Positions 8,898 to 62,354 of a stretch of 64,000 nucleotides of DNA are shown piece by piece (the first letter of the stretch is position 1; each line of letters opens with the position of its first letter). The stretch covers positions 9,069,805 through 9,133,804 of the forward strand of contig CM055266.1 of assembly GCA_029237695.1 (NCBI GenBank), given 5' to 3'. Origin of the DNA: Conchocele bisecta (Eukaryota; Mollusca; Bivalvia; Lucinida; Thyasiridae). The notes below the pieces were generated by a model, which was not told the DNA's origin, ran no database searches, and saw only the letters and a program-made list of their open reading frames with translations. The position numbers and the translations under genes were made by a program.

Positions 8898-9266
8898 TAC
8901 ATAGCCCCGCAGGGGACGTGGAATTCTTTTTTATTAATTCGTTCCCACGAAATAACAATTTGTTCCCTCAATTTAACAATTAGTTCCCTCGAATTAACAA
9001 TTTTTCTTTCAATTTAACAATTTGTTCCCACAAATTAACAATTTGTTCCCTCAAATTGATAATTTGTTCCCACAAATTGTTAATTTGAGGGAACAAATTG
9101 TTAATTCGAGGGAACAAATTGTTACTTCGTGGGAACGAATTGTTAAATTGAGGGAACGAATTGTCATTTCGTGGGAACAAATTGTTAATTCGAGGAACGG
9201 AACAAATTGTTATTTCGTGGGAACGAATTAATAAAAAAGAATCCATGTCACCTGCGGGTCTCCATA
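8898..9266. mobile_element. TACGGAG foldback element, copy 4, with perfect 6-bp target duplication
   Basis: The ends are slightly mutated (TACATAGCCCCGCAGGGG and GCGGGTCTCCATA). The 21-bp iteron array switches orientation near 9070. The flanks are gttcac at 8892-8897 and 9267-9272. Confidence 0.75.
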
Positions 9267-27147: not shown

Positions 27148-27303
27148 CTAATCATCCTCTTCAACACCAATTTTATTCATGATAGCCTTGAGCATGGTGA
27201 CCATTTCCGAGCTCTGGTTCTCGAGCTGTTTGATCCGCTGTCCCATCTTCTCACCTTGCTTCTTCATCGCTTCCTGCTCTTCCTTCACTCGTCGGATATC
27301 CGT
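27148..27303 (-). CDS. TRPA1-like last exon: C-terminal coiled coil and stop
   Basis: 51 codons plus TAG. The acceptor is TTTTTAG, phase 0. It encodes TDIRRVKEEQEAMKKQGEKM, then QRIKQLENQSSEMVTMLKAI and ends IGVEEDD. The heptad-like charged sequence predicts a short coiled coil, at the place where TRPA1 has its tetramer-forming coiled coil. Partial copies of its end follow downstream. Confidence 0.9.
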   Translation of the reverse strand, partial: TDIRRVKEEQEAMKKQGEKMGQRIKQLENQSSEMVTMLKAIMNKIGVEEDD

Positions 27304-29698
27304 CTAAAAATGACACCGTAGAGGGTAATGTAAATTTATAGCATATAGAATACATATTTAGGAAAACACTGGTCGAAGCAGGTTTATTTGTTTTGATGAA
27401 ATAGGTGTTTCCGATATTAACAAATTGTATCCAAATTCAGTGATACACGTATTTTGTTTTATGTATGTGTATGTGCCGTGAAACATGGTGCCGTGAAACC
27501 TTTTTGATCTCCTGTCAATACGACCCTAATCACTGCGTATGAATATGGGTGGCTGGGGTTATTTTTTTTGCATTTTAAAGCCATTTGTAGGTGTTGACGG
27601 GATAAATAGAATAGTAGGTTAGTGCCGTGAATGGGAAAAAATATCTGGCAAGGCTTCGGAAACGGGATGGGCGAGGCTCTAGTGCCGTGAATGGGAAAAA
27701 ATATCTGGCAAGGCTTCGGAAACGAGATGGCTGCGGCCCGCAAGTCGCGACCGTACGTACGTCAATGTGCCGACTATATTGCAAGCGGCCGCGATAAAAA
27801 TGCAGTACAATTGCGAATGGACAGCACAGACCTACCATTTCTGGATTGAGTGCACCAGCTATTTTCTCGCGGGTAATTCCGTATGACTCGAGTCCGAACT
27901 TCTTGTGTAGTTTGAACGGCAGTTTGACAACGTGGAGGTTGACTGGGTCCGGATACTCGAAGATGGATCGTTTCCGGATCGCTTCAGGCACCACACTCTC
28001 CAACTCCAGGATCAACTCAACCTGTACAATGGATCGATTGATTGATGGTTTTAACCCAGGGAATTAGTAAAAACTATGTAAGTACAGTCGAACCTCCCCG
28101 AACGGCCACCTCTCTACAACAGCCACCTCTCTGTAACAGCCGCTATTTTATATCCCAAATGGATGATTTCATCTATATCTAACCCTTACACTGCTGAGCA
28201 TGAACATTGTCGTTTGATGTTGATTTTGCCTTCTTTCTCAATAAAAACATGTTTTGACAGCATTTTAGAATCATTTCCATTGGAAATGATTCTAAAATGC
28301 TGTCAAAACATGTTTTTATTGAGAATTATTGAACAAAATAAATAAACATCAGATGATAAAATTGTATTCAGCATTAACCTCCCTACAACAGCCACCTCTC
28401 TATAACAGCCAATTTTGCCTCTTCCCATGGGTGGCTGTCGTAGAGAGGTTGCACTGTAGTTGGGTATTAACATTGATTGGAGTTTTACGTTCGTTCATCA
28501 GCAATGTCATATATAGAGAAGGCATAAACTATTTATTTATACCGCAACCATTGCTCAATGTAGCATAATAAAGGGGGTTGAATAAATGCTATTTATATAT
28601 GAAGTAACCTAATATACCTGAAGTAGCCTAATATACATGAGGTGCCGTTTTTTCATCTTTGACCCTTAATTGTGGCCTCTGATTGGTCAGTCTCAACAGC
28701 AAATTCAAGATGGCGGCAAATTTTAAAATCGAAATAGCTGTCGCTCGAGCTGAATATTGTCCATTTTTACAGTATATGCGACGTAACCAACAGCATGGAT
28801 ATGTCCATTACGATTGCAATGTTTATTATGACAACTGTGTAGTCTAAAACCAGCCAATATTGAAGCTCATCGTAAATAAATCGGAGATTTAATCAAATAC
28901 AATACCGAATTTACCTTGCGTGGACGCCGCCATTTTTCTTTGAATGACGTCGTTACATTTGTGACGTATGGCGAGGGAATGACGTCAAAACATGACGTCA
29001 CGCACTTTCAACAATTAAGTTTAGTATGCGGTATAAATTAAATACATGATTAGTGTCGTCAAAATATAAAATATATTTGGTTTCGCCCAGACAACTGCTG
29101 TCTAAGGCTCAACCGAATATATTTTATATTCGAAGGCACTAACCATGTATTTATTATTTCTTAAATTTCAGCCAATAGTTTATTTACATAAATATATCGC
29201 TACTTGGTTCTGTAGAACAGCATTCATTTATTGGAGTTTTACGTTCGTTCAACAGCAATGTCATATATAGAGAAGGCATAAACTATTTATTTATACTGCA
29301 ACCATTGCTCCATGTAGCATAATAAAGGGGGTTGAATAAATGTTGTTTATATCTGAAGTAACATAATATACCTGAAGTAGCCTAATATACATGAAGTAGC
29401 CTGAAGTAGCCTAATATACATGAAGTGCTGTTTTTGCCTTTATTTTTTTATTTGACCCCTAATCGTGGCCTCTGATTGGTCAGTGTCAACAGCAAATTCA
29501 AGATGGCGGCGAATTTTAAAATCAAAATCGCTGTCGGTTCAGGTGAATTTTGTCCATGTGTCCATGGCCAAATGTTCGTCGGCAGCAAAACGTGGAACAG
29601 ACAGTAGTGGTCCTTTACCTGCATCCTTAGGCGGGTGAGGGCGGCCTTGTCCTGCACTTCTTTGATGTTGTCTACAGCCAGTCCAACCTGTAAGGGGA

Positions 29699-29744
<46 letters not shown>

Positions 29745-32700
29745 AAGTGCAAATTTAGGATTGTCTGGAAATTTCAATTGATGGATTTACATTTAATTGG
29801 CATATGCAGCCTGTGCTCCATAAATGTAAATCCAATAATTATATACAAGAAAACATTGTTAATGTGAAATTTACAGACTATCATAATTATGCACTTACAA
29901 ACATTTTGGTCGTACAAAGTTTAGAGAAATGGGCCCAAGATGAGATTGCATGTGTCTGGGGGAGCAATGTACATTTATGTTCAGCACTACAAGTACAACA
30001 AAAACTTTCAACGCTGAAATACAATGTTCTGATCCGATGCCAGGCACTCTTACTACTATTGCATCACCTAGTCATGACTTTACTAGTTCAATAAGTGATT
30101 ATGTAAGAACTCTATGTTGAAATGACACATAATTTATGCATTTAACGTCCAATATATTGCATTTAAGAGTGGCAGTCTTCACGTTTGAACTTTTTGAAGG
30201 CCCCTCGTACACCACTGACAAAATCTTACAGTTTAACCTTACTAAGATTGAGACCATCGTAGCCCTAGATTAGCCAATGCATCCATACTGTTCGCCATTC
30301 CATCACATAGATAAATCTTACTGCCATCAACCAAACAGATTAGATCCGAATCGGACAAAACTGAATAACAACCACATGCGTTTCCGAAATATTGCGAGAT
30401 CCGGTAAAGGTGTTGTTACCGGGACCTGCCCATCGTCACCTCGTGAATTGACGGAATCAGCATTAATCTATGATGTGCCGACAGGTAGGTTCTGGTAATG
30501 TTTTGTTTATTAATGTTTAACGGCCTATCAACAGCTAAGGTCATGTAAAGCCGGGCAAACGGGTTCGATCCCATTTTAACCTGCTGCATCGGGGGGAAAA
30601 TCCCAAAATCAGAACGGAATATTTACATCGAGAACAAATATATTCAGCCCTGAAATTAGAATAACCTGACCTGGTGCCAGGTCCATACCACACCAAGTCA
30701 CTTGGCCCCTTCCCCTATAATAGGATTACGAATATCATACTACTCACATAAGGGGTATAACCAGATTCAACTGTCACATACAAAATGCCAAAGACATGTG
30801 AGGGCCAAACCAGGTCTACAGTCGGATTTCTGGTAAGGATGAACCCCGATCGTTAAATTACCCATCGCATGCTCCCACCTGCCACCCACGGTTCCGGTAA
30901 TGATCACATTACTGTAATGTCCCATTTAAGACCCCACATATGGCTGTGACTGGAGAAATGAGACTTACATAGTTGCGATTAGTGTAGCTCCTGATCAAAG
31001 CGCACACTCCTGTAGCCTGACAACGATCTTTCTAATGCACTCTATAAATATCACGCAATCTGATTGGCTGATGGTCATACATTACAGCTATATCATTGTT
31101 GATGAACGGTCGCAAATTATTTCAATATGTATTCCTACGCCAGTAGTAAAGGAGTGCATTAGAAATAGGTTAACCACATTGTAATTTTGAAATTTGTGGC
31201 GTATATCAGAAAATGATAGGTCGGAAAACATGATTAATGGCGTTAGCGTGTCGCCATTAAACAGATTTTCTGACCTATCATTTTCTGATATATGCCGCAA
31301 ATTTCAAAATTACAATACAGTTAACCATATAATATTCCCTGTTAGAAGCATGACGGCTGATTCATTACTGGCCGTATTTCATTGCTGGAATGGCGAACAG
31401 TGCAGATCCTGTTCAGACTGCGGATGTGGATAATGCAGATCCTGATCAGACTGCAGTGCGGATACTACAAATATACTTACGAGTAAATTCATGACAATGA
31501 TGGTCATCATAATGGAGAAAGCAGAGAAGAGGATATACGACGACAATTCGTGCTTCACGTCTCCCATCACAAAATCATCGCCGAAGTCAAACTCCCCGGT
31601 CATCATAACCGACGTTTTCACAAGGGCAAGGCTGATGTACTCAAATGCTGGCTGTTAAATATAAAAGGAGCATTATGTATGGCTCACAATGGGGGATCAT
31701 ATCTAGTTATTTCCCTTTGAATTTATTCATAGAAATCTGGTCAAAATTGTATATGTTAGGGTCTTATTGCTTGTAGAAGTGTGAATGTCAGATGATTTGT
31801 TGTGAAAATGAGTCAATATAGTGATTTTGACTACTGTCTGTTTCACGAAAGCTGCCCAAATGTTACGGCTATATAAACAAATCAAAAACAAGATATTTTT
31901 TGATAATATTAAATTAAAGGAAAAATTAAGAATGAGCCTTCTTTTTATTTCGTGAAATTTGGTCAAATATTGATTTTATTGCGAAAAAACTATTTCCCCA
32001 TGTTAAATCCCCATAGAGTGAAGATGTCTATGGACATTTAACATGGGGACATTTTTTGGATTTCAGAAATACTGGACCGATTTTCAAAATTTAACTTTTG
32101 TTTTCTTAGTTAGATCATTTCCAAGCTATCTAGCCAGGTCTTGGAGTAAATTTCCAACATTTTTCATTTTCGGACTCCTCCCATAGCTTCTCTACCTCCT
32201 TTTCCCCCCATGTTAAATTCTCATAGACAAATAAATTTTTCGTAATAAAATCAATATTTGACCAATTTTCACGAAATAAAAAGAAGGCTCATTCTTATAT
32301 TTTCTTTTAATTTAATATTTACATCGAATAAATATTGTTTTTGAATTGTTTATATAGCTGTAAAATTTGGGCAGGTTTTGTGAAACAGACAGTAGTGTTA
32401 ATCCAGGTCATCCTATATAGCTGTACAATCTCATCCGGTTGCATCCGGGCAATACTAATTTTATTGTTAACAGTGTAGACTCAGATCAGACTGCACCTAT
32501 GTGTAGTCTGATCTTGGTCTATTCTGTTCGCAAAACTATTTTTTTTGTGTGTTTTTCGGTAAGAAATAAATGCTGAAATACAGCATAGGACTAGATTAGC
32601 AAAGGGAGTTAACTAGCTACGTTCTCCCATTAAAACGACTAAATCATCAAGCTGAAAGAAATAAACAATAACGTCAGCAAAATATGAATTCAAAACTGAT

Positions 32701-35700
32701 AAGCCACCCGACAGTCATGCATGACAAAGCACCGTCAGAAAAAAACCCAACTATAATGCAAATTCTAAGCAATTTGACATTCACATTGAGCATGCCAACT
32801 GCATAGGTGGGCTATAGTATGAAAATATGAATGATCAGGCTCCAGATAAGGAATTAGTAATTGAGTATTTTCACTATCATTTCTGAAGCAAATGGGTATT
32901 TCAAAATTTTAATTGGGTAAAATAAAATCACACTACTTTTTACACATCAACAAACAGCAATTATTGAATAGTTTGCTTCGAAATGAAAACATGTCTTGGC
33001 ATTTCAGTAGAATTGTCTCCTTGTTATTGCTTTTTGGTACTCGCTACTTCTGATTTTAATTGTTTTTTCTTGCAATTTTAATTGGGTATTTAAGAAAATA
33101 CGCACTGAATGATGATATATAAGCATATCCATGAAGTCAAACCGACTTATAGTCGCGGAGATACATGTACGAGGTATCTAAAAGGTACAACACAGGTTTC
33201 GGACACATGGACAGACACGCGGATGCATAGTTGCGAACGATAACTCTTGCAATCTACTCCCGTACCGTCCGTAGCCAGCAGAGAAGGCCTATGAGTGGAA
33301 TCGTAACTCTGGCTACGGACGGTACAGGAGTAGATTGCAAGAGTTACCATTCGCAACTAGCGGATGCACAGACATCATCTGCAATGTGTGTGTTCACTAT
33401 GTGAAGATGATTTCCACAATTTGAAGGTCTTAGGCTGTATGGATACAGAAACCATTGGTACTTAAATCCTTGGTAATAGAGAGCTAATGGGTTGGCTACA
33501 GAATGAAAATATGGATGATGACAAATAAACATATAAAGCTCCAAGAAAATCCGAAACTCAGATTTTCTTGGAGCTTTATATGTTTATTTGTTATCATCCA
33601 TTTCTGCAGAAATGTAAACTGCATATGAGACAAGCCATGTGCGATGTGAAATTTTCTGTAAATGACGTCGAAAATTGTCAGAGAAAATGCAGAATTCTAT
33701 TCCGCATTTGCTCTGAACATTTCGTAAATTTTCAACATCATTTGCGGAAAATATCCTAATTAAGTTCTGTAAATATCTTTCATGAGATACAGCACATCTT
33801 CTTAGGTACAAAGTCACACGACTTGTTTGACATTCTGTATAGTTTGATCAGTGATACACTGGTCTTGCAAGCTTCCCACAAATAAAATTGATCCTCATCA
33901 GACTGGAATAACCAAACTTATCAGGAGCTAGACTGGCCACAAATGGTATACTCCACATGCTCTAACATGCATTGTAGGCTCATAATCAGAGAGGGGGGTC
34001 ACTACGGTCGAACGACACCCGAGTACCACCTTGAAATCCACTTTTTCATACACGGTATCAGAAATATTGTAGTTATATTGTCATTGTAAAATATTCATGC
34101 AAGAACGAGAGTCATATTATGTGCTCAGTCTTTGTTGAGAATACAGGAAATTGTGTTTCAGACCACCTGAATTTCAAACTTTTCTCGTGGAGAATGCCCC
34201 GGACCCCCTCGCTGCCTCAGGCCCTGGACCCCTTCAGGCCCTGGAATAGTTGTGGGCAGTAACTCTGCAAAACTCCCGTGCCGCCCGCAGCATACGGTAC
34301 GGGAGTTTTGCAGAGCAGGGTTTGCACTCATTTGGGAAGATCAAATTCCATGACTTTCAAGGACCTGTTTTCGAAATTCAAGGACCCATGTTTGCATGGA
34401 TGATGCTGATGAAACGGTGTTTTACGGCTTATCGACTCATAACTTGAGCTATTTCGAGCCTGGAATACACCTGTGTTGGGGAGAGAAGTAGTAATTCAGT
34501 TCTGACTTTACAAAATCCCGATTTGGTGCCAGGTGCCCTTACCACATCAAATTGTTTGGCTAGAAATCACGAAATTGCACTGAACTTTCCTCAACAACAC
34601 CAATAATTGGACTGGAATACAAATTTCATGACTTTCAATGACCTTTTCAGAAAAAGAGACAAATTCCATGACTTTCCAGGCCAGGAATCCATTTTTCCAA
34701 ATTCCATGACTTTCCAGGAATTTAAGGACCTGGCAGAGTTACTGCCCGCAACTAGCCATCAAAAAGACCCGCCGCTTCAAATAGTCTGGTTATGGGTCTA
34801 CATTTGTATACATACATACATCATACTCACCATATTTCTCAGTTCCGAATAGAATGCCAAGGCGAATGCTATGATGAACAACGCATACACAACAAAGAAT
34901 TCTATAAAAGTGTTTAGGATATCCTTGAACATCACCACATATATTCCAAATGTGGGAAACCGCTGTGCAAACAGCACTAAATTGATCCACGCAAAAAATA
35001 GTGCCGCTGCTCCGATTGACCACTGCCAATCCTGAAAATAGAAAATATTAAGTAAGAACCCTAACTATTCAGACACAATTACAATACAAAGAGTGTCCAA
35101 ATGTATAGGGTTAGTATGGTTGTACTGGTTTATCACAATACCAATATATTTGGATACAATTTGTTTTGGGAAACCCATATTTTATTCCACAAACAAATGG
35201 TGTCAGAATATTTAGGGTTAGTACGGATTTGGGATACAATCTGTTTCAACTCTGGTTTTAATTATTGTTCCAAAGCAATCTTCATTACCAGTTAACCATT
35301 TCATTATTAAGTAACTGTCTTGGATTCTTCCCGGTTTTATTTTCAGATCATTCCATTCAGAAGACTAGACATTATTTTTGTAAAACATGGACATGCCCAA
35401 CGGCATATTGGGGCCCGTGTCACTAAACTTTGTACGACTAAAATGTTCGTAAGTGCAAATTTAGGATCGTCTGGAAATTTCAATTGATGGAAAAACATTT
35501 ATTGAGCATAAGCTGCAAATGCAGTAAGGGTTAATATGGGAATACAGTTGTGAACAAACTCTGAAAGACCCAACACACTTATGATAATTGTGGCTGCGAC
35601 TGGAGAAATATGGTTTCTGGGATTTGTGACCAGTGTAGCTCCTGACCAAACAGCATGCGGATAACAATCTATATTGCTTGCAATAAGCATGTCGTGTTTT

Positions 35701-53700: not shown

Positions 53701-56700
53701 AAGCAAAACTTGAGGTAATATGAATGGGATTCAGAAGAAAGCAAATTGCTGATGCGAATCTGTCTCCCGGCATACACAATATTGTATTATCTACCTGTAT
53801 TTTTAATTCGCTCTGGCTTCCCCCATTTCCGGAGTCTGTACATGTCGTCAACAAACTTGTAGTCGAACTGAACAATGTCGTTCTCGATCTGCAAACACCG
53901 AGTGAACACGACCTCCGCCAGGTCTGGAAATCAATGAAAGAATTTATTTATTTAATCAATCCAAGGAACATATGGAAATACTGAACTGTGACTGAGTGAC
54001 GTACATACATGGACTAATCTATTGGCGAGGGGATAATAAGCCTCATTTTTCATGGTCGATTCACATTTCTAACTTGGCATATGTCGAATCAGCTTTCCAA
54101 AGTGCAATTTACATTTCTTAGGTGTCACAGGAAATTCTCCCCCCTGGAAATCTTCCCCCACCCCCCCCCCCCCCCCCCTACGGGGGAAGATTTCCAGGGT
54201 TGGGAAGATTTCCTGTTACACCGGTATGTCGAATCAGCTTTCCAACAAGCAATTTACATTTCTTACTTGGCATATGTCAAATCAATTTTCTAATGGGAAT
54301 TTCACATTTCTTACTTGGCATGTCGAATCACCTTTCTAACGGGCGTTTAACATTTCTTACTTGGCAAATACCAAATCACCTTTCTAATGGGCGTTTCACA
54401 TTCCTTAATTGGCACTTTCTAACCGTGTTACACATTTCTTACTTGGCATGTCAAATCAGCTTTCTAACAGGCGTTTCACATTTCTTACTTGCCATATGTC
54501 GAATCACCCTTCCAACAGGTTTTACACATTTCTTACTTGGCATGTAGTCACCTTCTAACGGCCGTTTCACATTACTTACTTGGCATATGTCGAATCAGTT
54601 TTCTAACGGGCGTTTCACATCGACCCGTGCAGTTCTGTAAAGCATCTTCCCAGCAGCGTGATTCGACGATAATTCTAGCTACATCTCTGAAATAAAAGTA
54701 TTCCAGTGAGGAGAAAGGGGCCGTCTACTGAGAAAAGGTACTTAATTACATTTGCAACCAGCGTAACCCCAGATCAGCCTGCGCAGTCTGACCAGGGTCT
54801 ACACTGTTCGTTATATGCTGTCACTAAAGTATGCTTACTGTCATCACCAACATAATGGCAGGGGTATAATACTAGAAGGCCGCGGCCAGCATGATGTGCC
54901 CGCCGAGGCTTTAATAGTATACCGAAAAACTTCAACCAAAAACTTTAACACAGATGCACAGATGGACAGCGGACGTACGCCAATGTGCAGACTATATCGC
55001 GCTGTCCGCAAGCGGGCACGACAAAAACCATCTCTAGTTGACTTTATTGGGGTTTGCAAAACATTTGGTCAGTTTATAGATTACATATGTTTAACAGACC
55101 AACTTGTTTACGTTACACAATAAAAGCAACAGAGAATGGGCTTTGTATATTAGGCAATAACTTGTTTAACGTATAACAAGTGTTTCACTGACTGAATGGC
55201 GAACAGTACAGACCCTAATCAGACTGCGCGTTTGGGTCTACACTGGTCGCATTGGCCGTCAGCCCCATTTTTCCAGACAGCCATAAATGAGTTGAATTCA
55301 TTGTAAACGTTTCTACAACTCCAAACAGCTGCATCTTACTCGTTGAGGTTGGTGATTGCGATGTCGAGGCAGTTGTTCCCGTCCTCGTCCAGATGTCCGA
55401 GCCGGGAGCCGGCAGAGATGAGATAGTCGACCACGTGGACATGACCAGCCTGGCATGCCAACTGTAGGGGCGTCCGCTGGAAACAGCGACACGAGATGTT
55501 GGAGATTTATTTATTTATTGCATAAATGAGCTTTCACAGTTTAATAACAAACTGTATTAACAATTATAATACACCATCGTGTGTTACCAACGTATGTACA
55601 CATGTACGTGCATGGACTAACACTATATCCCCTCTTGCCTAATGTCATCTCAGGTTGGGTTAACAGGGTCAAATTGTGTATTACACTTGCATGGACAGGA
55701 GGCAAATCGTAAAATCTGAACTGAATATTTACATAAAATTTTATATATTCAGCCCTGAAGTTAAAATAACCTGATCTGGTGCCAGTTCTTCACCACACCG
55801 GAGCCACTTAGTCCCACTCCCTAAAAGTAATAGGATAGTACTAATTTTACTACTCTTATAATGGGTATAACCAGGTTCCGCTTTCCTGAACAGATAGAAG
55901 TGAACTTGTAGTTGGGGGGTGGGGGAGTACCATACATTCAGCTCTGAAAGTACAATAAGCACCTTTACACAGGATCTCTTGACACCAGGTGTGAATGTCA
56001 GGTTTACCATTAACATTTGATTATCTGACGCCACCTCCACTAGAATTTACCTCTTTCCTGTCTAGGTGATGAATATCTGACCCCGCCTCCATTAGGGTTT
56101 GCCTTGTTCTGTCTGCATGATGAATATCTGACTCCCACCTCCACTAGGATTTACATTTTTCCTATCTAGATGATGATTATCTGTCCCCGCCTCACTAGGA
56201 TAACCCTTTTCCTGTTTAGGTGATGAATATCTGGCCCCGCCTCCACTAGGATTTACCTTCTTCCTGTCTAGATAATGAATATCTGACCCTGCCTCCACTA
56301 GGATTTACCTTTGTTCTGTCCAGATGATGAATATCTTACCCGCCTCCACTAGGATTTACATTTTTCCGGTCTAGGTGATGAATATTTGACCCCGCCTACA
56401 CTAGGATTTGCCTTGTTCTGTCTGCATGATGAATATCTGACCCCACCTCCACTATGATTTACATTTTTCCTGTCTAGATAATGATTATCTGTCCCCGCCT
56501 CCACTAGGATAACCCTTTTCCTGTCTAGGTGATGAATATCTGACCCCAGCTCCACTAGAATTTACCTTTTTCCTGTCAAGATGATGAATATCTGACCCCG
56601 CCTCCACTAGAATTTACCTTTTTCCTGTCAAGATGATGAATTTCTGGCCCCGCCTCCACGAGGATTTACCTTTTTCCTGTCTAGGTGATGAATATCTGAC

Positions 56701-59700
56701 CCCGTCTCCACTAGGATTTTACACGTCTTTATCCAGCCAGCATCAGCAGCACAGGATAGCGGTGTCATCTGTAAACTGTTCCTGTAATTAAATGCGGCTA
56801 ACATTTAGAGAATACCAGGGCCCAGTTGCTCGAAAATTCTGTTAGCATAACGGACTGTTAAATCCTAAACTAAGTTAACAGACGTTTTGAGCAACCGTGC
56901 CCTAACAAACTGTTACATCCTTAACAGTGTTAAGGATTTAACAGATTTAACAGCCTGATAGTGCAGTGGCGGATCCAGGATTTCACCAAGGAGGGGGGGG
57001 GTGGACCCACATGGAACTTGAACGAGGTTGTTGGCTAGGGGGTTCCGGAATTTTTTTGAATTGAGGAAGCCATTTCCTGCATTCTACTGCATTTTTTTCA
57101 TAGCACTTGCTCAATATTTCTGGCCCCCCACCCCCCTGAATCCGCCTCTGTAGTGTTAATCTAACAGATGTTTTCAGAAACCGGGCAGTAACAGTTTTAA
57201 GGATTTAAACAGTCTGTTAAGCTATCAGAGGTTTTGGGCCCAGGCTATTGTTTGCCATCTATTTGTAACTGGAGAAAGTGGCTGGGTAACCTTTCTGGCG
57301 AGTCAAGTTCCTGAATTTATGGTATCTGCTACTGTACTCAGCATTGGCAAATGGAACCTGATTTCAAAGATGAGATATATGCCTGTACGGAGAAAAGTGT
57401 TCTAGAAGCACGGCCCCTCCTCCACCACACTCTTGCATATTTGAATACCATAATAACCCTAAATATTAGGAACCAATTCTGGGAAATACATGTTAATATA
57501 TGGTTTACCACAACAAAGAGTGTTCTAAATATTAACCCTTACACCGCTATCTTAATTTTTTGTCGTCTGCTGTTCATTTTCTATTTTACATTTTTATCAT
57601 CAACCAGATGTCGAGCCAGCCGAGGCATTTGATGGTATTTTTAAAAACTTTAACGCATATTTCGACGTACGGATGGACGCACGCACACACAAACACATGG
57701 ACGGACACCCTGACGTCATTGTGATCACCATGTCTCGCTTTCCACAAGCGGGCTCGACAAAAACATGATTTGACATCACGTTAGAATAATTTACAACATG
57801 GTTTGACAGCACTTCAGAATCATTTCCTTTGGAAATGATTCTGAAGTGCTGTCAAACCATGTTTTTATTGAGAAATAAGGCAAGATATAAAAGCAACAGC
57901 AGATGACAATGTTGTGAGTAGTGGTCTAAGGGTTAAGGTTAATATGGTTGCACTGGTGTATCACAACAACAAACTGTTTGGATAGAATTGGTTTTAGGAA
58001 ACGCCTATTAAATTGTGCCCGACTATTGAGGATTATTAAGGTACATACTCGGAAATTTTGTATAATCACATAAACTTGTTAGATGCTTTCTTCCATGTCA
58101 CATGGTTTACTAAATGTGGCTGTAACTGGAGAAATGGGGCTTATGGCATTTTCGACAAGTGTAGGTCCATTGACAGTATATACATACGTACAGTCTGATC
58201 TGTTTGCCAGTCTATCAATGAAACACTCGTCATGCTTCTAACAAGCAAGATAGAACGTTATCGGACTACATGAGTGTGCTATTTGATCAGGATCTACATT
58301 AGCCACAAAACCCATAAGCCCGATTTCTCCCGTCACAACCACAAACTTTCTAACTGAAGCTCAAAACTGACAAACGTGCTAAACTTACTTAATGAAACAA
58401 ATTTCTAGCTACTTTTTGATAGACCCTCATGGAAAGAATTAATGAAAAGTGCGTCCTCTCATGGGAAGATTCAAAGCTGGCTGTTGTAGAGAGGTGGCTG
58501 TTATATGGAGGTTAAATATAAATGAATTTACCCAATTGTGAATTAAAATAGTGGCTGCTAGTGTTTATATAGAGGTGGCTGTTTTATCCCGTCAACACAG
58601 TGCGTATGTGTCGTGAAACATGGTGCCGTGAAACATTTTTAATATTCTGTCAATACGACCTAATCACTGTGAATGAATTTGTGCGGTGGCTGGGGTTATA
58701 TTTTTGCATTTTACAGCCATTTTGTAGGTGTTGACGGGATAAATAGAATAGATATTTTTTACCCATTCACGGCACTAACCTACTATTCTCTATTTAAAGA
58801 GGTGGCCGTTCATGGATGTTTGACTATACTCACTCTTTGGACACACTGGCACCTTCTCGCAGCAACAGTTGTGCTATCTGGTAGTGACCGTATATGGCCG
58901 CAATGTGGAGAGCCGTGTTTAACTTGTCGTCATGGTCGTAAATCGTCCCCGGGTATGGCAATAAGACCTTGACAATACTGAAAATTGACATACACTGGTT
59001 GATTGATTGGTTGGTTGGTTGGTTGATTGGGTGGTTGATCGATTGATTGATTGGGTGGTTGGTTGATTGATTGATTGGTTGATTAATTGATTGATTGTGT
59101 AGTTGATTGTGTAGTTGATTGATTGTGTGGGTGGTTGATTGATTGTGTGGGTGGTTGATTGATTGGGTGGTTGACTGATTGATTGAGTGGTTGATTGATT
59201 GGGTGGTTGACTGATTGATTGGGTGGTTGATTGATTGGGTGGTTGACTGATTGATTGGGTGGTTGATTGATTGGGTGGTTGACTGATTGATTGGGTGGTT
59301 GATTTATTGATTGGGTGGTTGATTGATTGATTGATTTGTGGTTGATTGATTGATTGGGTGGGTGGTTGATTGATTGGGTGGTTGACTGATTGATTGGGTG
59401 GTTGATATTGGGTGGTTGATTGATTGGGTAGTTGATTGATTGGGTGGTTGATGATTGATTGGGTGGTTGATTTATTGATTGGGTGGTTGATTGATTGATT
59501 TGTGGTTGATTTATTGATTGGGGATTTTTTTACATCCGTAAAGAACTAGAAAATGTGTTCATAGAACACGGATGCCCAACATACCACTTTGATAATAAAC
59601 GAGGCAAAGTCCATGACCTGGGAGTCGAATCAAAAATCGAAATAAATTTTGTGCATCTACTCATCATAATGAAGCTACATACCAAGTTTCAGGTCTGTAG

Positions 59701-62354
59701 CTGGTACTGTTTTATGACTTACAAGGTTGGTGACGGACGGACGGACGTTCAAACATTTGGGAGTTATGAGCTATTTGTTCTTTAAAAGATCAAAGGAATA
59801 GCTCCTAAATTTCAATAGAATTACGAGCTAACTGAATAATACAATGGAATCTTTTGTTCCTAACCCCGCCCCTAAGCTCCTAAACCCCCGATGTTGACCC
59901 GGACGGACGGACCGGACGGGGACGGACGGACGTACGGAACGGACAGACGAGGTTAACACTAAATGACTATTGTGGTGGGTCATAAAAAACAGCAAGGTCA
60001 TATGAGATAAGCCATGTGATTTAGTACCTAAGAACTTGTGAAATATCTTATGAACAATACTTACAATATTTTCTGTAAATGAAGTCGAAAGTTGACAAAA
60101 TGTTCATAGCAAATCTATTCCGCATTTGAAAAGAAAATTGCGTCATCTTCCGATGTCATTAACAGAAAATGTCAGTTTTGTAAATACATATGGACGGACG
60201 TCAGGAACCTCAAGAGCAACACAATATGCCCCCCTTGCTATCGCATAGGGGGCATAATTATATGTATAGAATAAGAACATCAAACACTGAAGCTGTACTG
60301 ACCAACTAACATGTTGTCTGTAGTGGTCTCAATGGTATATTTACTACACCAGTGTATTATCATAGTTAACACAATATTATTACATAGTGAAATGCTATTT
60401 ATGTACCGACTTACTTTAAATGGCCAAACTTCGTTGCAAGATGCAATGGAGTTTTCCCGCCATAATGGGCACACCGAACCTCGGCCTTCTGATGCAGTAA
60501 GTACTGGAAAATGACATAAAATGAAGCGACATGCATGCCAGTAAACCTTTCTAACTGTCTAATTTCCAAACCATGCATATTATCTGGTTAAACACTTCCC
60601 ATGACAAATTTGTTCATTTGTGTTATCAGCTTGGAACAAAAAAGTTATTTGATTGCCCTAGTATGTTCAATTTTGGATGGACAAACTGATTGGCAAATAG
60701 TGTAGATCCAGATGAGCCGGCTCGTGATGAGCCGTCTCATCAGGATCTGCACTTTTCCAAGTAATTTTCATATTTTTGAGAACAAAAACGCCCCATTTTC
60801 ATAAATGATACATGGACTACCGGTAGTCTAAAAATTATTTTGGGATGATTGGATTGGTTTCAAAATTAACATATCAAAATCCATTCTAGTTACTTATGGG
60901 TGCAAGGGTTAAAGATGACACAACCCTACCTTTAAGCCGTTGAGGTGGCCATTGAGAGCGGCGATGTGTAGTGGGGTCATTCCTTTCTCATTGCCATCCT
61001 CCAACATGGGCTGCAGGTTGATTCGTCTCTTCTCATCCAATAATGCCTATATCATAACAACAATGCACAAATTTGGCTCTGGTGAAATAGGGCTTATGGT
61101 ATTTGTGGCGAGTCTGACTCCTGCTGTGCTAGCATGCTAATGCAGACTGACATTATCAAGGTGCATGATCATGTGGTTACAACAACAACAACAATGACTG
61201 ACAGTGTTGAAATCTTGCCCACTCCAAAGTAAGTATTATTTGATATTTTCCTTAATATGCAACAGATTTTTATGCAATATGGCACAGCAAACGCGTATTC
61301 ATGGGCTGCATTTGGTCGTCCCAGGAGTTCGGCACAAACTTCCGATTTCCGTGTCTACCGACATGGAAATTGATTCTTCGCAAAAAAGACAATGCACAAA
61401 TGCACAAGTACAGAGACCACCAAATGCAGCTTAATGCGTTTGATGTGCCAGATTTCATCAAAATCTGTTACATAATAAAGACAAAATAAAAGAATATGTT
61501 CTTTGAATCGGAGGGCTTCTGGAAGTTTAAGTATTTGTTGTTGTTGTTGTAACCACATGATCATACATGTACACCTTGATTATATGGTTTATTAAAAGCA
61601 TGATGGGTGTTTCAGAGGAGTTGTGTACACAAACTATGCAGTTTTTCTGTCCGCCCACCCGCCGCCCGCCCCGCGGTAAAACATAATACATACTGTTTTT
61701 TTAAAACGGTCGTATAAAAAATCAATGTTATCTAAAGTTTATCTACTAAAAAAGGCGGGGTCAGATATTCATCATCCACCGCTTCATATATACAATTACA
61801 ATTGATATTGAATGTCGGTCTATACTACGCTGCACGAGTTTCATTGGTCAAACAACAATAAGCCCCTCCCTTTTCTCATGACGGGTCACACATAGGCACA
61901 ATATCAACATGTATGGTGAACAAAAACAAAATATCAAGCAAAAACTCAGACATGTGCTTTTAAGCATGCACATGAATGGTTTAACGTCCCCACAACCTAA
62001 AGTCTTATCCGAAAGACATGTGGGATGGAAATACTATGAAAGTGTTTTGTAATACCTAGGGCGGGATTGAACCCCCAACCTCAGGTATTGAAGTCCAATG
62101 TAGTAACCGCTAGACCACAATCCATTCCTCCGTTCAGCATGAACCATACCTCCATGCTTTTGCAATGGTTGTATTCTGCAGCCAGGTATAGCGCTGTGCG
62201 GCCATGTTCGTCCACGGCGGAGATATCCACCCGGTCGTGTTGCAAGACCAGATCACACACCGCACTGTGGCCGTTTTGGCTCGCAACCATCAAAGGAGTG
62301 CACCCTTGTCTGTCTCTCGCATTTATATTGGCCCGCTTATCTCTCTTGTCACCA
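27148..62354 (-). CDS. TRPA1-like ankyrin TRP cation channel, 17 coding exons (5' partial)
   Basis: Join, in transcript order: 62354-62150, 61046-60930, 60503-60415, 58977-58834, 56781-56670, 55476-55340, 54686-54580, 53923-53795, 51223-51159, 48604-48435, 38207-38069, 36037-35906, 35031-34831, 31651-31481, 29687-29619, 28021-27836, 27303-27148. All junctions are GT-AG and the phases agree, giving 775 codons plus TAG. In window numbering: eight ankyrin repeats at about 12-275 (TPLHIAALNGH, TPLHLATKFGH, TALHIAAIYGH and others), a linker with C291 and C313, S1 at about 393-415, S2 at 455-471, S3 at 487-503, S4-S5 at 520-575, pore MMTGEFDF at 598-605, S6 ending VMNLL at 635-639, then VGLAVDNIKEVQDKA, and a charged coiled coil at about 725-770. 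TRPA1 is a plasma-membrane channel for irritants, temperature or touch. The N-terminal ankyrin exons are missing because they lie beyond the window. An orthologue of TRPA1 or a molluscan TRPA paralogue are both possible. Confidence 0.95.
27469..27745. repeat. Family G copy with a small internal duplication
   Basis: 'gtgccgtgaaacatggtgcc' and 'ggttagtgccgtgaatggga' match family G. The segment 'gtgccgtgaatgggaaaaaa' through 'cttcggaaacg' occurs twice in tandem. A short piece of another repeat ('gctgcggcccgcaagtcgcg') follows to about 27797. Confidence 0.55.
27836..28021 (-). CDS. TRPA1-like exon: post-TRP region
   Basis: 62 codons. The acceptor is TTGTACAG, the donor is ATG|GTAGGT, phase 0 to 0. 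It encodes VELILELESVVPEAIRKRS, EYPDPVNLHV, KLPFKLHKKFG and EKIAGALNPEM. The opening VEL follows RMQ as in TRPA1. Confidence 0.93.
28085..28457. mobile_element. Composite family I element, second copy
   Basis: It matches 12632-13006, including the TTAA-type foldback at the same inner position (about 28181-28376, with the palindrome 'tttagaatcatttccattgg'). Confidence 0.65.
28478..29565. repeat. Direct duplication of about 290 bp around a CRE-like cluster
   Basis: 28478-28768 and 29232-29565 are near-identical blocks ('ggagttttacgttcgttc', 'cataataaagggggttgaat', 'caaattcaagatggcggc'). Between them lie TGACGTCG, GTGACGTA, TGACGTCA and TGACGTCA at about 28943-29000, and an inverted repeat at about 29040-29155 ('ataaaatatatttggtttcg' and complement). 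It sits in a TRPA1-like intron. Confidence 0.6.
29567..29607. repeat. Solo end of a family H MITE beside a splice donor
   Basis: 'cggcagcaaaacgtggaac' and 'agacagtag' are the right end of family H. It stops 11 bp from the donor of the exon 29619-29687. Confidence 0.6.
29619..29687 (-). CDS. TRPA1-like exon: end of S6 and TRP-like helix
   Basis: 23 codons. The acceptor is CCTTACAG, the donor is CAG|GTAAAG, phase 0 to 0. It encodes VGLAVDNIKEVQDKAALTRL then RMQ, which follows VMNLL of the previous exon. This is the most TRPA1-typical segment of the gene. Confidence 0.95.
29697..29743. repeat. (ATTG)n microsatellite
   Basis: About eleven ATTG units lie 10 bp upstream of the acceptor side of the exon 29619-29687. 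Confidence 0.85.
29744..29940. repeat. Foldback family B, partial copy
   Basis: 'gtgcaaatttaggattgtc' on the left and 'cgtacaaagtttagagaaat' on the right belong to family B. The left end is cut off by the ATTG repeat. Confidence 0.6.
30501..30905 (+). repeat. Family F, good copy
   Basis: It begins near 'ttgtttattaatgtttaacgg' and includes 'gggttcgatcccattttaac' (B-box-like), 'tattcagccctgaaattaga', 'ctggtgccaggtccatacca' and 'aaggatgaaccccgatcgtt'. It is about 400 bp with no coding frame. Confidence 0.65.
30945..31470. repeat. Family X copy with an inner long hairpin
   Basis: The ends 'gctgtgactggagaaatga' and 'gatcctgatcagactgcag' are family X. Inside, about 31163-31325 is a long hairpin ('ttaaccacattgtaattttg' on the left, complement on the right). 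The right part runs to within about 10 bp of the donor of the exon at 31481. Confidence 0.55.
31481..31651 (-). CDS. TRPA1-like exon: pore loop and S6
   Basis: 57 codons. The acceptor is TTTAACAG, the donor is CTC|GTAAGT, phase 0 to 0. It encodes PAFEYISLALVKTSVMMTGE, then FDFGDDF and S6 (SAFSIMMTIIVMNLL). The pore glutamate of MMTGEFDF stands where human TRPA1 has an aspartate (MLGDINY), from memory. Confidence 0.95.
31834..32392. mobile_element. MITE family A, copy 3
   Basis: It is flanked by TA (31832-31833 and 32393-32394). It starts CTGTCTGTTTCACGAAAGC and ends 'ttttgtgaaacagacag', 559 bp. A fragment of family X follows at about 32460-32545. Confidence 0.8.
32838..33112. mobile_element. 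Foldback with GAGCTCCAGATAAG end, one intact side
   Basis: 'ggctccagataaggaattag' and 'caattattgaatagtttgct' correspond to 905-1293 read from the other end. The far end ('gggtatttaagaaaatacgc') lacks the terminal motif. Confidence 0.6.
33228..33359. mobile_element. 132-bp hairpin MITE with perfect 9-bp target duplication
   Basis: It starts TAGTTGCGAACGATAACTC and ends with the complement, 'gagttaccattcgcaacta'. The arms stay complementary for more than 50 bp. The flanks are gcggatgca at 33219-33227 and 33360-33368. A 9-bp duplication is typical of Mutator-like elements; the class is an inference. Confidence 0.8.
33484..33835. repeat. Hairpin followed by foldback family E copy
   Basis: 33484-33605 is a hairpin ('gaaaatatggatgatgacaa' and 'ttggagctttatatgttta' pairing). 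33611-33835 is family E, with the palindrome 'gcagaattctattccgc' at its centre. Confidence 0.6.
34247..34754. mobile_element. Larger relative of the 132-bp MITE
   Basis: The ends TAGTTGTGGGCAGTAACTC and 'gagttactgcccgcaacta' are complementary. A hairpin at about 34258-34315 lies next to the left end ('ctctgcaaaactcccgt' and complement). The interior repeats 'ccatgactttcaaggacc' several times. No target duplication is seen. Confidence 0.6.
34831..35031 (-). CDS. TRPA1-like exon: S4 and S5
   Basis: 67 codons. The acceptor is TATTTTCAG, the donor is ATG|GTGAGT, phase 0 to 0. It encodes DWQWSIGAAALFFAWINLVL, AQRFPTFGIYVVMF and the S5 segment with FFVVYALFIIAFALAFYSEL. 'LQRF..CGIFIVM' in human TRPA1 is the matching stretch, from memory. 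Confidence 0.95.
35409..35885. repeat. Family B left half and family X copies
   Basis: 35409-35530 is the left half of foldback family B ('ggggcccgtgtcactaaact'). 35580-35885 holds family X motifs twice ('ggaatggcgaccagtgcagc' and 'aggctgacctggatcaacac'), ending just before the donor of the exon 35906-36037. Confidence 0.55.
35906..36037 (-). CDS. TRPA1-like exon: S2-S3 linker and S3
   Basis: 44 codons. The acceptor is GTTTTCAG, the donor is TTG|GTAAGT, phase 0 to 0. It encodes LCQFFQARKNYITIENLLEW then IIFVFSIILVIDF. FFQARKNY..ENLLEWII matches the TRPA1 pattern IFQQKRNY..SNVLEWII, from memory. Confidence 0.95.
36120..36565 (-). repeat. Family F copy, reverse orientation
   Basis: It reads as the complement of the copy at 37325-37755, with 'gaatcacggtttgcctggtt' at one end and 'ttgataggccgttaaacccc' at the other. 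It contains a small tandem 'catgtacatgtacttgtac'. Confidence 0.65.
36822..37055. mobile_element. Foldback family B copy
   Basis: Left 'acagggggcactaaaatttg', centre 'ataggctgcatatgcagcct', right 'agtttagtgaaacgagcccc'. The left end is shortened. Confidence 0.65.
37085..37235. repeat. TTAA-type foldback, one-sided fragment
   Basis: 'gttgtctgctttttatttta' and 'gaatcatttccattggagt' belong to the family. The right arm is mostly missing. Confidence 0.5.
37325..37755 (+). repeat. Family F, good copy
   Basis: It begins 'ttgtttgttggggtttaacgg' and ends with 'ggaacccctaccattaattt'. Together with 36120-36565 it forms a pair in opposite orientations about 760 bp apart in one intron. Confidence 0.65.
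37855..38035 (-). mobile_element. tRNA-derived SINE, copy 1
   Basis: Read on the minus strand, 38035-37965 begins 'gattggccatggcctagggt' (A-box-like) and continues to 'ggttgtgagttcaatcccta' (B-box-like). The body follows, with 'catagtatttccatcccact'. The copy at 61965-62125 has the same head and body. Confidence 0.6.
38069..38207 (-). CDS. TRPA1-like exon: S1-S2 loop and S2
   Basis: 139 nt. The acceptor is AATTCCAG, the donor is GAG|GTAAAC. It opens with one base that completes the codon split at the end of the 48435 exon. It encodes DSATVLGSVGNSLCDKVD, then QQVCKYFIIVLAVTLIIME. Confidence 0.93.
38416..48434. repeat. 57-bp minisatellite, about 10 kb, seeded from an exon end and its splice donor
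   Basis: Units are 57 bp, with a 54-bp variant lacking three bases. Read on the minus strand each unit holds 'tatggtgaccacc', 'cccccatactcatt', then GTAAGTCACATTCTCGCAG. The last 29 nt of the exon 48435-48604 plus the first 28 nt of the intron make exactly one such unit, so the array continues directly from the exon. It fills nearly all of the 10.2-kb intron, about 175 units by length. 38.4-42.05 kb and the last about 150 bp are clean, while 42.05-48.3 kb is rich in 1-base indels. Long open frames on both strands result from the unit length being 3 x 19. Confidence 0.95.
44862..44965. other. A-rich non-unit block inside the 57-bp array
   Basis: About 100 bp of 'gaagaaaaataaaaagaagg' type sequence interrupts the array. 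A shorter A-run is at about 43121-43155. Both lie in the error-rich part, so they may be sequencing artefacts. Confidence 0.45.
48435..48604 (-). CDS. TRPA1-like exon: pre-S1 and S1, ending in the first 57-bp unit
   Basis: 170 nt. The acceptor is ATTTTGCAG, phase 0. The donor is TT|GTAAGT, phase 2. It encodes VLSQRLELLAHPLISGLLRR, KWSGLAVWLFYFTLGIYAVF and ends TSYMVTTKPPYS. The phase-2 donor joins to the next exon and gives PPYSFDSATV. The alternative donor ATG|GTGACC would break the frame. The last 29 nt belong to the minisatellite unit. Confidence 0.9.
48743..49290. mobile_element. Foldback (GTAGCCTATTTCACC family) with an inserted segment
   Basis: The left arm starts 'gtagccgatttcatcaaaat'. 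The palindrome at about 48885-48942 and the right arm to 'gttggtgaaataggctac' match 2514-2798. The block about 48943-49208 ('attccgcggaatcaaatgtc', 'gatgactgtagctgataagg') is inserted after the palindrome and occurs separately near 17620, 19867 and 22166. Confidence 0.6.
49331..49751. mobile_element. MITE family H, copy 2
   Basis: It is flanked by TA (49329-49330 and 49752-49753). It starts CTGTCTGTTCCACGTTTTGC and ends 'aaaacgcggaacagacag'. 421 bp, no coding frame. Confidence 0.75.
49950..50860. repeat. Long spaced inverted repeat
   Basis: The left arm at about 49950-50370 and the right arm at about 50583-50800 are complementary in blocks: 'accatatacattagaaactc' pairs with 'gagtttctaatgtatatggt', and 'tacgaaagaatctcacacag' pairs with 'ctgtgtgagattctttcgta'. 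About 210 bp lie between the arms. No coding frame is seen. Confidence 0.65.
51062..51158 (-). repeat. Short tandem repeat directly after a splice donor
   Basis: About four units of about 24 bp ('gttcaggtctatatttag' type) start next to the donor of the exon 51159-51223. Unlike the three larger arrays, no exon sequence is included in the unit. Confidence 0.5.
51159..51223 (-). CDS. TRPA1-like exon: pre-S1 linker
   Basis: 65 nt. The acceptor is CTTTGCAG, the donor is ATT|GTAAGT. The first codon is completed by the previous exon (E). It encodes ENTRQEYEAIGGYKKNHILM then VI. Confidence 0.9.
51310..52060. repeat. Repeats with GAATTGCCGTCTGCTGT palindromes
   Basis: 51310-51545 is a short repeat ('ggccgcagcccgcatgtcgc' to 'aagcgggtgcgacaaaaa', also at 54870-55025 and 57603-57770) split by a foldback at about 51416-51635 ('ttcatgacatatttatgata' and complement). 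The right half of that foldback occurs again at about 51915-52060. Confidence 0.5.
52240..52510. repeat. Interspersed repeat with GACGGAC microsatellite
   Basis: It contains 'ttgaccttggccttggatat', 'aatatggatgatgataagga', a GACGGAC run at about 52418-52452 and 'ccacatcgacatactttgta'. No gene is seen. Confidence 0.4.
52843..53176. mobile_element. Foldback with CTCCAGATAAG-type ends, diverged copy
   Basis: It starts 'gctcctgataagctgcatat' and ends around 'tactcgattgtttcagaaat'. The inner palindrome 'attatctccaaggagacaat' is shared with 905-1293. Confidence 0.6.
53270..53700. repeat. Family G copy with an inner hairpin insertion
   Basis: 'agtaggttagtgccgtgaat' occurs twice (53284 and 53456), separated by a hairpin at about 53330-53440 ('tttgaaccgtctcgccgaga'). 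The right side is 'acggcacatacgcactgtgt'. Confidence 0.55.
53795..53923 (-). CDS. TRPA1-like exon: linker after the ankyrin repeats
   Basis: 129 nt. The acceptor is TTTCCAG, the donor is G|GTAGAT. It encodes LAEVVFTRCLQIENDIVQF, DYKFVDDMYRLRKWGKPERI then KNT. The cysteine of FTRC (window C313) lies ten residues after the proline of MPN, the same spacing as human TRPA1 C641 after its LPE proline, from memory. Confidence 0.93.
54062..54579. repeat. 48-bp minisatellite seeded from an exon end and its splice donor
   Basis: About nine units follow the donor of the exon 54580-54686. On the minus strand each unit reads 'gtgaaacgcccgttagaaag', 'ctgattcgacatatgcca' and 'agtaagaaat'. The unit equals the last 41 nt of the exon plus the first 7 nt of the intron. 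A 102-bp foldback (54121-54222) is inserted in the distal part. Some units lack 'ata' or carry base changes. Confidence 0.92.
54121..54222. mobile_element. 102-bp foldback with a C-run, inserted in the 48-bp array
   Basis: It starts GGTGTCACAGGAAATTCTCC and ends with 'gatttcctgttacacc'. Both arms hold 'ctggaaatcttcccc', and a run of Cs forms the loop. Confidence 0.7.
54580..54686 (-). CDS. TRPA1-like exon: linker with candidate electrophile-sensing cysteine
   Basis: 107 nt. The acceptor is ATTTCAG, the donor is A|GTAAGT, phases 2 to 1. It encodes EDVARIIVESRCWEDALQNC, TGRCETPVRKLIRHMP and one base of the next codon. The CETPVRKLIRHMP stretch matches the human CPITEMIEYLP stretch that begins with C621 (from memory, with a two-residue gap). 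Cutting the exon earlier would remove this conserved piece. The last 41 nt are the 48-bp repeat unit. Confidence 0.9.
54752..55290. repeat. Family X fragments and the CCGCGGCCAGC repeat
   Basis: 54752-54820 and 55190-55290 are family X fragments ('gaccagggtctacactgttc', 'gtctacactggtcgcattgg'). 54870-55025 matches the repeat at 51310 and 57603 ('aagcgggcacgacaaaaacc'). Confidence 0.5.
55340..55476 (-). CDS. TRPA1-like exon: ankyrin repeats 7 and 8
   Basis: 137 nt. The acceptor is GTTTCCAG, the donor is GA|GTAAGA. It encodes RTPLQLACQAGHVHVVDYLI, SAGSRLGHLDEDGNNCLDI and AITNLN. It has the TPLxLA and GH hallmarks of ankyrin helices. Confidence 0.95.
55500..55900. repeat. Family F variant
   Basis: 'ctgaactgaatatttacata', 'tattcagccctgaagttaaa' and 'tgatctggtgccagttcttc' mark a diverged family F copy. 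The left part (55510-55590) resembles 1385-1470. 55901-56033 holds nothing recognised. Confidence 0.45.
56034..56669. repeat. 52-bp minisatellite seeded from an exon end and its splice donor
   Basis: About twelve units lie directly downstream of the exon 56670-56781. On the minus strand each unit holds 'aaatcctagtggaggcgggg', 'tcagatattcatcacctag' and 'acaggaaaaaggt'. It equals the last 50 nt of the exon plus GT of the intron, so nearly every unit keeps a donor-like AAAAAGGTAAATCC. Units are diverged, and some carry 'attatctgtccc' or 'tctgcatgatgaata'. Confidence 0.93.
56670..56781 (-). CDS. TRPA1-like exon: ankyrin repeat 6, ending in the first 52-bp unit
   Basis: 112 nt. The acceptor is AATTACAG, the donor is AAG|GTAAAT. 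It encodes NSLQMTPLSCAADAGWIKTC, KILVETGSDIHHLDRKK and joins in phase to RTPLQLA. Because the exon end is repeated downstream, other units also look like a donor. This one is chosen because it is the first and keeps the frame. Confidence 0.88.
56820..57240. repeat. Foldback with GTTAACAG motifs and an inserted MITE
   Basis: 'ccagttgctcgaaaattctg' and 'cagaaaccgggcagtaacag' type motifs occur in both orientations. 56963-57153 is a MITE with ends CAGTGGCGGATCCAGGATTT and 'ctgaatccgcctctg' and G/C runs near both ends. CAG ends fit hAT-type elements, which is an inference. Confidence 0.5.
57535..57935. mobile_element. TTAA/CCCTTA foldback interrupted by the GTCGAGCC repeat
   Basis: It starts TTAACCCTTACACCGCT and ends 'ggtctaagggttaa', with the palindrome 'cagaatcatttcctttgga'. 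The block about 57603-57770 ('atgtcgagccagccgaggca' to 'aagcgggctcgacaaaaaca') is inserted in its left arm. Confidence 0.6.
58116..58340. repeat. Family X, near-complete copy
   Basis: The ends are 'gtggctgtaactggagaaat' and 'tttctcccgtcacaaccaca', with 'gatctgtttgccagtctatc' inside. Confidence 0.6.
58441..58828. mobile_element. Family I element, reverse, ending 5 bp from a splice donor
   Basis: 'gctggctgttgtagagaggt' and 'gaggtggccgttcatggatg' are the complement of family I. A family G piece (about 58577-58795) is inserted. Its outer end stops just before the donor GTGAGT of the exon 58834-58977. Confidence 0.55.
58834..58977 (-). CDS. TRPA1-like exon: ankyrin repeat 5
   Basis: 144 nt. The acceptor is ATTTTCAG, the donor is GA|GTGAGT. 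It encodes IVKVLLPYPGTIYDHDDKLN then TALHIAAIYGHYQIAQLLLR and EGASVSK. It joins in phase to the ENSLQM exon. Confidence 0.95.
58990..59525. repeat. TGATTGATTGGGTGGT-type simple repeat beside an acceptor
   Basis: About 535 bp consist of TTGATTGA and TTGGGTGG blocks. The complement, rich in CAATCAAC, forms the intron end 13 bp before the acceptor of the exon 58834-58977. Confidence 0.9.
59546..60240. repeat. GTTCATAGAACACGG repeat, GACGGAC microsatellites and a family E copy
   Basis: 59546-59960 has 'aaatgtgttcatagaacacg', 'gggagttatgagctatttgt' and two GACGGAC runs, sharing its end with 24460-24660. 59998-60240 is foldback family E ('gataagccatgtgatttagt'). Confidence 0.55.
60415..60503 (-). 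CDS. TRPA1-like exon: ankyrin repeat 4
   Basis: 89 nt. The acceptor is TTTTCCAG, phase 0. The donor is AA|GTAAGT, phase 2. It encodes YLLHQKAEVRCAHYGGKTPL then HLATKFGHL. Confidence 0.93.
60930..61046 (-). CDS. TRPA1-like exon: ankyrin repeat 3
   Basis: 39 codons. The acceptor is GATATAG, the donor is AAG|GTAGGG, phase 0 to 0. It encodes ALLDEKRRINLQPMLEDGNE, KGMTPLHIAALNGHLNGLK. Confidence 0.93.
61157..61578. mobile_element. Foldback family D copy
   Basis: It starts 'tcaaggtgcatgatcatgtg' and ends 'acatgatcatacatgtacac' and 'cttgatt'. It has the (CAA)n and (GTT)n next to the ends, as in the other copies. Confidence 0.65.
61753..61778 (+). repeat. Stray copy of the 52-bp exon-end repeat core
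   Basis: 'ggcggggtcagatattcatc' is the core of the 56034-56669 unit (coding GSDIHH in the exon) but lies 5 kb upstream in another intron and in the opposite orientation. Around it no second unit is seen. Confidence 0.6.
61965..62125 (-). mobile_element. tRNA-derived SINE, copy 2
   Basis: On the minus strand the head reads 'tgtggtctagcggttactac' (A-box-like) and then 'ggttgggggttcaatcccgc' (B-box-like). The body has 'catagtatttccatcccaca'. The head ends 25 bp from the donor of the exon 62150-62354. Confidence 0.65.
62150..62354 (-). CDS. TRPA1-like exon: ankyrin repeats 1 and 2 of the visible part
   Basis: 205 nt. The acceptor is CATTGCAG, the donor is GAG|GTATGG. It opens with one base of a split codon, so at least one more exon lies upstream. 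It encodes ANINARDRQGCTPLMVASQN, then HDRVDISAVDEHGRTALYLA and EYNHCKSME. Confidence 0.93.

Follow-up and report, generated by a model that had tools for sequence, protein, structure and literature searches.

Why should several introns of one gene begin with tandem copies of the exon end just upstream? The question is raised by a TRPA1-like gene in a 64,000-nucleotide stretch of the Conchocele bisecta genome (the window), and we asked whether the position of these arrays calls for a process acting at splice donors or whether ordinary minisatellite birth suffices.

Fourteen exons of the gene were placed on the minus strand of the window from AG/GT borders and frame continuity; this splice-signal and frame model yielded no exons between ankF and S1 and no 5' exons. 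The joined protein from S1 to the end is 407 amino acids long, and its residues 3-308 match TRPA1 structures best (E = 9.7e-43). TRPV channels trail as matches at ~1e-7, and the gene is therefore called TRPA1-like. Its exons, with the outcome of the repeat tests described below, are:

62150..62354, minus strand: exon ankA (ankyrin repeats), with AG/GT borders and an open frame; no array, donor test negative
58834..58977, minus strand: exon ankB, from the exon model; donor array absent, donor test negative
56670..56781, minus strand: exon ankC, from the exon model; last 50 nt inside the first 52-bp unit
55340..55476, minus strand: exon ankD, from the exon model; array absent, donor test negative
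54580..54686, minus strand: exon ankE, from the exon model; last 41 nt inside the first 48-bp unit
53795..53923, minus strand: exon ankF, donor end set by eye; short edge test run one base off
48435..48604, minus strand: exon S1, encoding the first transmembrane helix; last 29 nt inside the first 57-bp unit
38069..38207, minus strand: exon S2, from the exon model; array absent, donor test negative
35906..36037, minus strand: exon S3, from the exon model; array absent, donor test negative
34831..35031, minus strand: exon S4-S5, from the exon model; array absent, donor test negative
31481..31651, minus strand: exon S6, from the exon model; array absent, donor test negative
29619..29687, minus strand: exon with the TRP box; array absent, donor test negative, two paralogues with a 39-bp donor array at the equivalent boundary
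27836..28021, minus strand: exon after the TRP box, from the exon model; array absent, short edge test negative
27148..27303, minus strand: last exon, with the stop codon, from the exon model

Repeats lie at four of the exon 3' ends:

38414..48463, minus strand: 57-bp minisatellite, ~173 copies (TRF), filling nearly all of the S1-S2 intron
56018..56719, minus strand: 52-bp minisatellite, 13.6 copies (TRF)
54225..54620, minus strand: 48-bp minisatellite, ~8 copies (TRF)
26662..27078, minus strand: two further degenerate copies of the last-exon tail and its 3' flank, at 27078-27012 and 26772-26662

The three long arrays consist of head-to-tail units in the minisatellite size class of 10-100 bp (TRF), and a splice donor is present in every consensus unit. 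On the minus strand, exon S1 ends in ...CATACTCATT followed by GTAAGT, and the 57-bp unit repeats its final 29 nt together with this donor and the start of the intron. The end of ankC reads ...GACAGGAAAAAG before GTAAAT, and its final 50 nt recur with the donor in the 52-bp array. Likewise, ankE ends in ...CATATGCCAA before GTAAGT, with its final 41 nt and GTAAG(T) repeated in the 48-bp array.

Two tests measured how far these repeats stand out. When 11 donor regions were each aligned locally with the 1.5 kb that follow them, the scores were 78 for S1 (shuffle maximum 26), 110 for ankC (24) and 81 for ankE (27), and self-alignment over the same distance was at chance level for the other 8 of 11 donors. 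The last-exon tail scored 87 against a shuffle maximum of 33; identical bases number 62 of 67 aligned in its copy at 27078-27012 and 86 of 107 in that at 26772-26662. In a short edge test, comparing the 80 nt about an edge with the adjoining 195 nt, 4 of 14 exon 3' ends of the gene were positive (S1, ankC, ankE and the last exon), as were 25 of 508 positions in its own introns outside the three arrays and none of its 14 acceptors. TRF and the alignments thus agree with the initial annotation, made from this sequence alone, that three introns open with exon-end-plus-donor minisatellites of 57, 52 and 48 bp and that the end of the last exon has degenerate copies too. It had also stated that the arrays share no sequence with each other; this held for the 52-bp unit: when two such units were searched against the genome, their own array was the sole match, a result that does not prove rarity.

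The 57-bp array is uneven in sequence quality. Insertions amount to 0-0.6% per 500-base bin at 38.4-42.0 kb and to 4-10% per bin at ~42.0-48.3 kb; the latter stretch is probably unpolished long-read consensus, and the copy number of this array is therefore approximate. Such an indel-rich tract is what one would cite in favor of the arrays being assembly artefacts, yet the array is clean at both ends and comparable arrays occur in other genes, which leaves an artefact highly improbable. Long open frames within the array are expected of a stop-free 57-nt unit (19 codons) in some frames and are not evidence of coding.

Are the inner donors used? That the consensus unit of every array contains a donor invites comparison with human IFI6, in which repeat units serve as donors (PMC4526556). 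Similarly, the arrays could be functional here, with repeated donors, or inner units as cryptic exons, regulating splicing of the channel. However, in all three arrays translation beyond the first donor runs into a stop before reaching the second (after one codon in the 57-bp array, after two in the 48-bp array, and at the fourteenth codon in the 52-bp array), such that any inner donor would bring in a stop codon. Within the unit, the copied donor ranks 44th of 57 in conservation in the clean part of the 57-bp array (~63 units) and 37th of 52 in the 52-bp array, and in neither is it conserved above the rest of the unit. Among the ~8 units of the 48-bp array it ranks 3rd of 46, which puts it with the best conserved parts of the unit. 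Paralogues, moreover, do without these arrays in their S1 and ankE introns. We consider a splicing function quite unlikely; the stops, together with unremarkable donor conservation in two arrays, would fit tolerance of the copies rather than their use.

Paralogues also bear on the age of the introns. At least five further TRPA1-like loci were found in the 1.89-Gb genome, with 65 of 268 candidates scored. The S1 exons of four loci (L035, L036, L038 and L150) end at the same residue as S1 in the window, and S2 lies on a separate exon (for L035, in L149). None of these four S1 introns carries the 57-bp array as judged by TRF, and the ankE-equivalent exon of L151 ends alike without the 48-bp array. 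Therefore, the S1 and ankE introns are older than the arrays. From these sequence comparisons, the arrays at both positions appear as later births in old introns.

It could be argued that the introns themselves were born by tandem duplication of exon sequence. A potato intron arose through duplication across an exon boundary, as described in the available text of PMC4974935, and some edge repeats elsewhere in the C. bisecta genome contain AG/GT in their unit (L097 and L131). Against such intron gain, the S1 and ankE introns occupy the same residues in paralogues that do not have these arrays, and all three arrays stop within the intron, short of the next exon. Repeat overlap with the start of that exon, expected of intron gain, was absent in all three. 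Hence, we rejected intron gain for S1 (four paralogue loci) and ankE (one locus), where introns are present without these arrays, and hold it to be hardly credible for the gene.

Some paralogues have donor repeats of their own. In L027 and L030, one 39-bp unit is arrayed at the end of the exon holding S6 and the TRP box (L027, positions 1709-2167, 11.6 copies; L030, positions 713-1514, 20.6 copies). The two loci lie ~0.4 Mb apart and have this donor-array unit in common at different copy numbers, and their arrays are probably one event. In L035, a 292-bp duplication of ~2 copies spans the S1 donor, which we read as an early stage of array birth. The edge test was applied to 22 of 26 paralogue exons, leaving out four near a locus end. 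Positive 3' ends numbered 2 of the 21 testable with the short target and 3 of 21 within 500 bp, as compared with none of 22 acceptor sides. Another paralogue, L025, may be a pseudogene, as its S4-S5 exon is interrupted by an in-frame stop.

The initial annotation had attributed the arrays to a repeated mechanism with donor position as the common factor. On this account, splice-donor regions are hotspots, where tandem duplications would be caused at exon 3' ends by some aspect of transcription, splicing or repair. Several observations favor it: all three long arrays of the gene, plus the last-exon repeat, begin at exon 3' ends; L027/L030 and L035 have donor duplications; and the rate in the gene's own introns outside the arrays is just 25 of 508. 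We compared these with control exons from other genes of the same genome, hand-picked as 110 of 278 listed matches (50 of 71 myosin, 40 of 93 SNF-transporter and 20 of 114 ion-channel matches). Loci L001-L008 (ion-channel) and L024, L031-L034 and L037 (ankyrin), mostly long single-frame matches, were left out. Control exon ends are ends of profile matches rather than RNA-proven borders. Flanks measured 1.5 kb for 30 myosin exons and ~220 bp for the other 20 myosin, 40 SNF-transporter and 20 ion-channel exons, so longer lags were missed at 80 of the 110 loci.

In the short edge test, 6 of 110 control donor sides and 9 of 110 acceptor sides were positive. At the 30 long myosin loci, 179 of 1770 positions in the flanks were positive (10.1%, bootstrap 5.8-15.2%), a rate taken in the downstream direction only at positions 40 nt apart that are hence not independent. 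L062 alone supplies 27 of these 179, and omitting the edge-array positions of L041 leaves 166 of 1756. Control exon edges together (15 of 220) fall slightly under the flank rate (one-sided p = 0.06). Counted positives may include duplicated exons (L044, L050, L088), a 12-bp simple repeat (L075) and a dispersed element (L129); L068 and L077 pass with a longer downstream stretch only and are outside the 6 of 110. Exon edges are not enriched in straddling duplications over the sampled flanks.

For TRF, we defined an edge array by a period of at least 25 and an overlap with the exon edge of at least 10 nt. One control donor had such an array (L041, myosin, 68 bp x 10.8, with a unit of exon end plus GTAATA), and so did three acceptors, belonging to one ion-channel exon and two transporter exons (L097, 79 bp; L108, 89 bp; L131, 44 bp x 8.4). 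These four exclude rows of L067, L073 and L075 with a period below 25 or an overlap below 10 nt. Arrays starting at most 15 nt past the match end (L064, L112, L124) were counted as flank, as was one entering the match of L073 by 8 nt from the acceptor side. Edge arrays number 4 in 25.65 kb of exon (0.16 per kb, or 0.23 if a T-rich row inside the L105 match is added). The 126 kb of flank hold 24 flank-only arrays (0.38 boundaries per kb).

Two control loci merit separate description. Myosin loci L044 and L050 have copies of both exon ends nearby and are perhaps relics of duplicated alternative exons. The L131 acceptor array occupies positions 1-370 of the minus strand, with 44-bp copies ~98% alike and TTACAG/GTATTGG within the unit, and precedes an ion-channel exon that we take to be of the voltage-gated calcium channel type.

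Other repeats were noticed along the way. Tetranucleotide CAAT/CAAC tracts lie just 5' of acceptors in sense orientation at 58996-59521 and 29699-29743 of the window (2 of 14 exons of the TRPA1-like gene), and near acceptors also in L044, L049, L060, L067, L068, L085, L112 and L146. Within the 100 nt before the control match start, they occurred at 8 of 110 loci in sense and 1 of 110 in antisense, as compared with none of 110 over the 100 nt past the match end and 10 of 690 other flank windows; the acceptor excess has p = 0.0013 for a pattern picked after examples had been seen. Small arrays, in both orientations, are made up of a dispersed 21-bp repeat of the AATTCGTTCCC...AATTAAC type:

Window 2304-2405, 4279-4616, 6184-6276 and 8936-9229, and also L070 and L073: 21-bp repeat arrays

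How unusual, then, is the TRPA1-like gene? Counting TRF arrays only, 3 of its 13 donors carry one against 1 of 110 control donors (p = 0.0035). By the short edge test, its 4 of 14 positive 3' ends exceed the control donors (p = 0.015), and for 3 of 13 the value is p = 0.054. Set against the control flank rate, the same fractions give p = 0.046 and p = 0.14, respectively. Against the gene's own introns they give p = 0.004 and p = 0.024, a comparison that leaves out the arrays and so tilts toward the initial annotation's idea. The gene was chosen for showing the pattern, and all its p values therefore overstate the case. It is an outlier relative to control exons, though one picked for the feature.

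The excess at exon ends over chance for which the initial annotation had proposed a genome-wide scan was sought in the 110-exon sample, and none was found, which is the outcome it had itself named as speaking against its idea. When all TRF edge cases are taken as independent, 6 fall at donors (3 in the window, 2 in paralogues, 1 in the control) against 3 at acceptors (p = 0.51). Thus, tandem duplication followed by expansion fits the proposed mechanism, but donor position as the common factor finds no support in the control counts at donors, acceptors and flanks. A donor hotspot was rejected on the 110-exon control, which shows no donor excess, and we judge it unlikely as an account of the arrays. 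We leave slightly more room, as a tentative idea with a small chance of being right, for some feature of TRPA1-like genes in this genome, such as germline transcription, that may favor duplication at donors, since 3' ends exceed 5' ends both in the window gene (4 of 14 vs. 0 of 14) and in paralogues (3 of 21 within 500 bp vs. 0 of 22).

Our preferred reading, which we consider likely, is that the arrays are ordinary minisatellites in a repeat-rich genome. No process aimed at donors is needed because acceptor-spanning and intronic duplications also occur in this genome, and edge duplications found at both exon ends, not above the flank rate, point to ordinary repeat birth. A short tandem duplication would by chance take in both the end of an exon and the donor beside it. 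The outer, exon-attached copy would retain the coding sequence, the frame and a working donor, and the inner copy would drop into the intron, where it could expand freely. Provided that splicing keeps to the first donor, expansion would be cheap, which may be how the arrays are tolerated. We read the presence of three arrays and a duplicated last-exon tail in one gene as clustering noticed through selection of the gene.

In the accepted model, minisatellites arise by slippage or by unequal exchange between short direct repeats, and either process may have started these arrays. The start and the end of the 57-bp array nearly match over 6 nt (ATGGTG/ATAGTG), a weak hint of birth between short repeats, and a weak near-match, CACAAGTKGA, precedes both copies in L035. 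Short direct repeats were absent at the ends of the 52-, 48-, 68- and 39-bp arrays. As they are barely hinted at for the 57-bp array, and weakly for L035, we infer the mechanism of birth and go no further.

Minisatellites carrying donors have precedents. That of human IFI6 (6-16), with its splice donors, was reportedly described by Turri et al. in 1995 (NAR 23:1854). The available account of IFI6 (6-16, G1P3) describes a minisatellite supplying several splice donors (PMC4526556), and we infer that it is placed at an exon end. The arrays in C. bisecta likewise carry donors, in units spanning the exon end and the donor. They differ in that IFI6 mRNA, by that account, uses downstream units as donors whereas an inner donor here would add a stop, and in that three arrays of different units occur in one TRPA1-like gene. 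Duplicated human genes are known to have variable internal tandem repeats where exons meet introns, and minisatellites there similarly alter gene structure; those cases came from comparing near-identical paralogues, and donor and acceptor cases are not told apart in the text available (PMC2812944). The potato case shares tandem duplication over an exon-intron boundary, but that duplication made a new intron, whereas the arrays in C. bisecta are longer, end within their introns and, at two of three positions, sit in introns that are old (PMC4974935). In Sparus aurata, intron 1 of MSTN-2 carries at its 5' end a 150-bp repeat present in one copy or two depending on the allele, a block at an intron start as here; unlike our arrays, it is not described as including exon or donor in the portion available (PMC3045353). 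The initial annotation's remark that it knew of no named class is too strong given the IFI6, PMC2812944 and PMC4974935 precedents, although a limited search of the literature turned up no gene described as carrying several donor arrays.

Straddling duplications were detected at 15 of the 220 exon edges sampled, a base rate that claims of a hotspot must exceed. More broadly, an intron can gain kilobases from exon sequence, as in the S1-S2 intron that is almost wholly array, and exon edges in a genome rich in repeats can give rise to long intronic arrays with the protein left undamaged.
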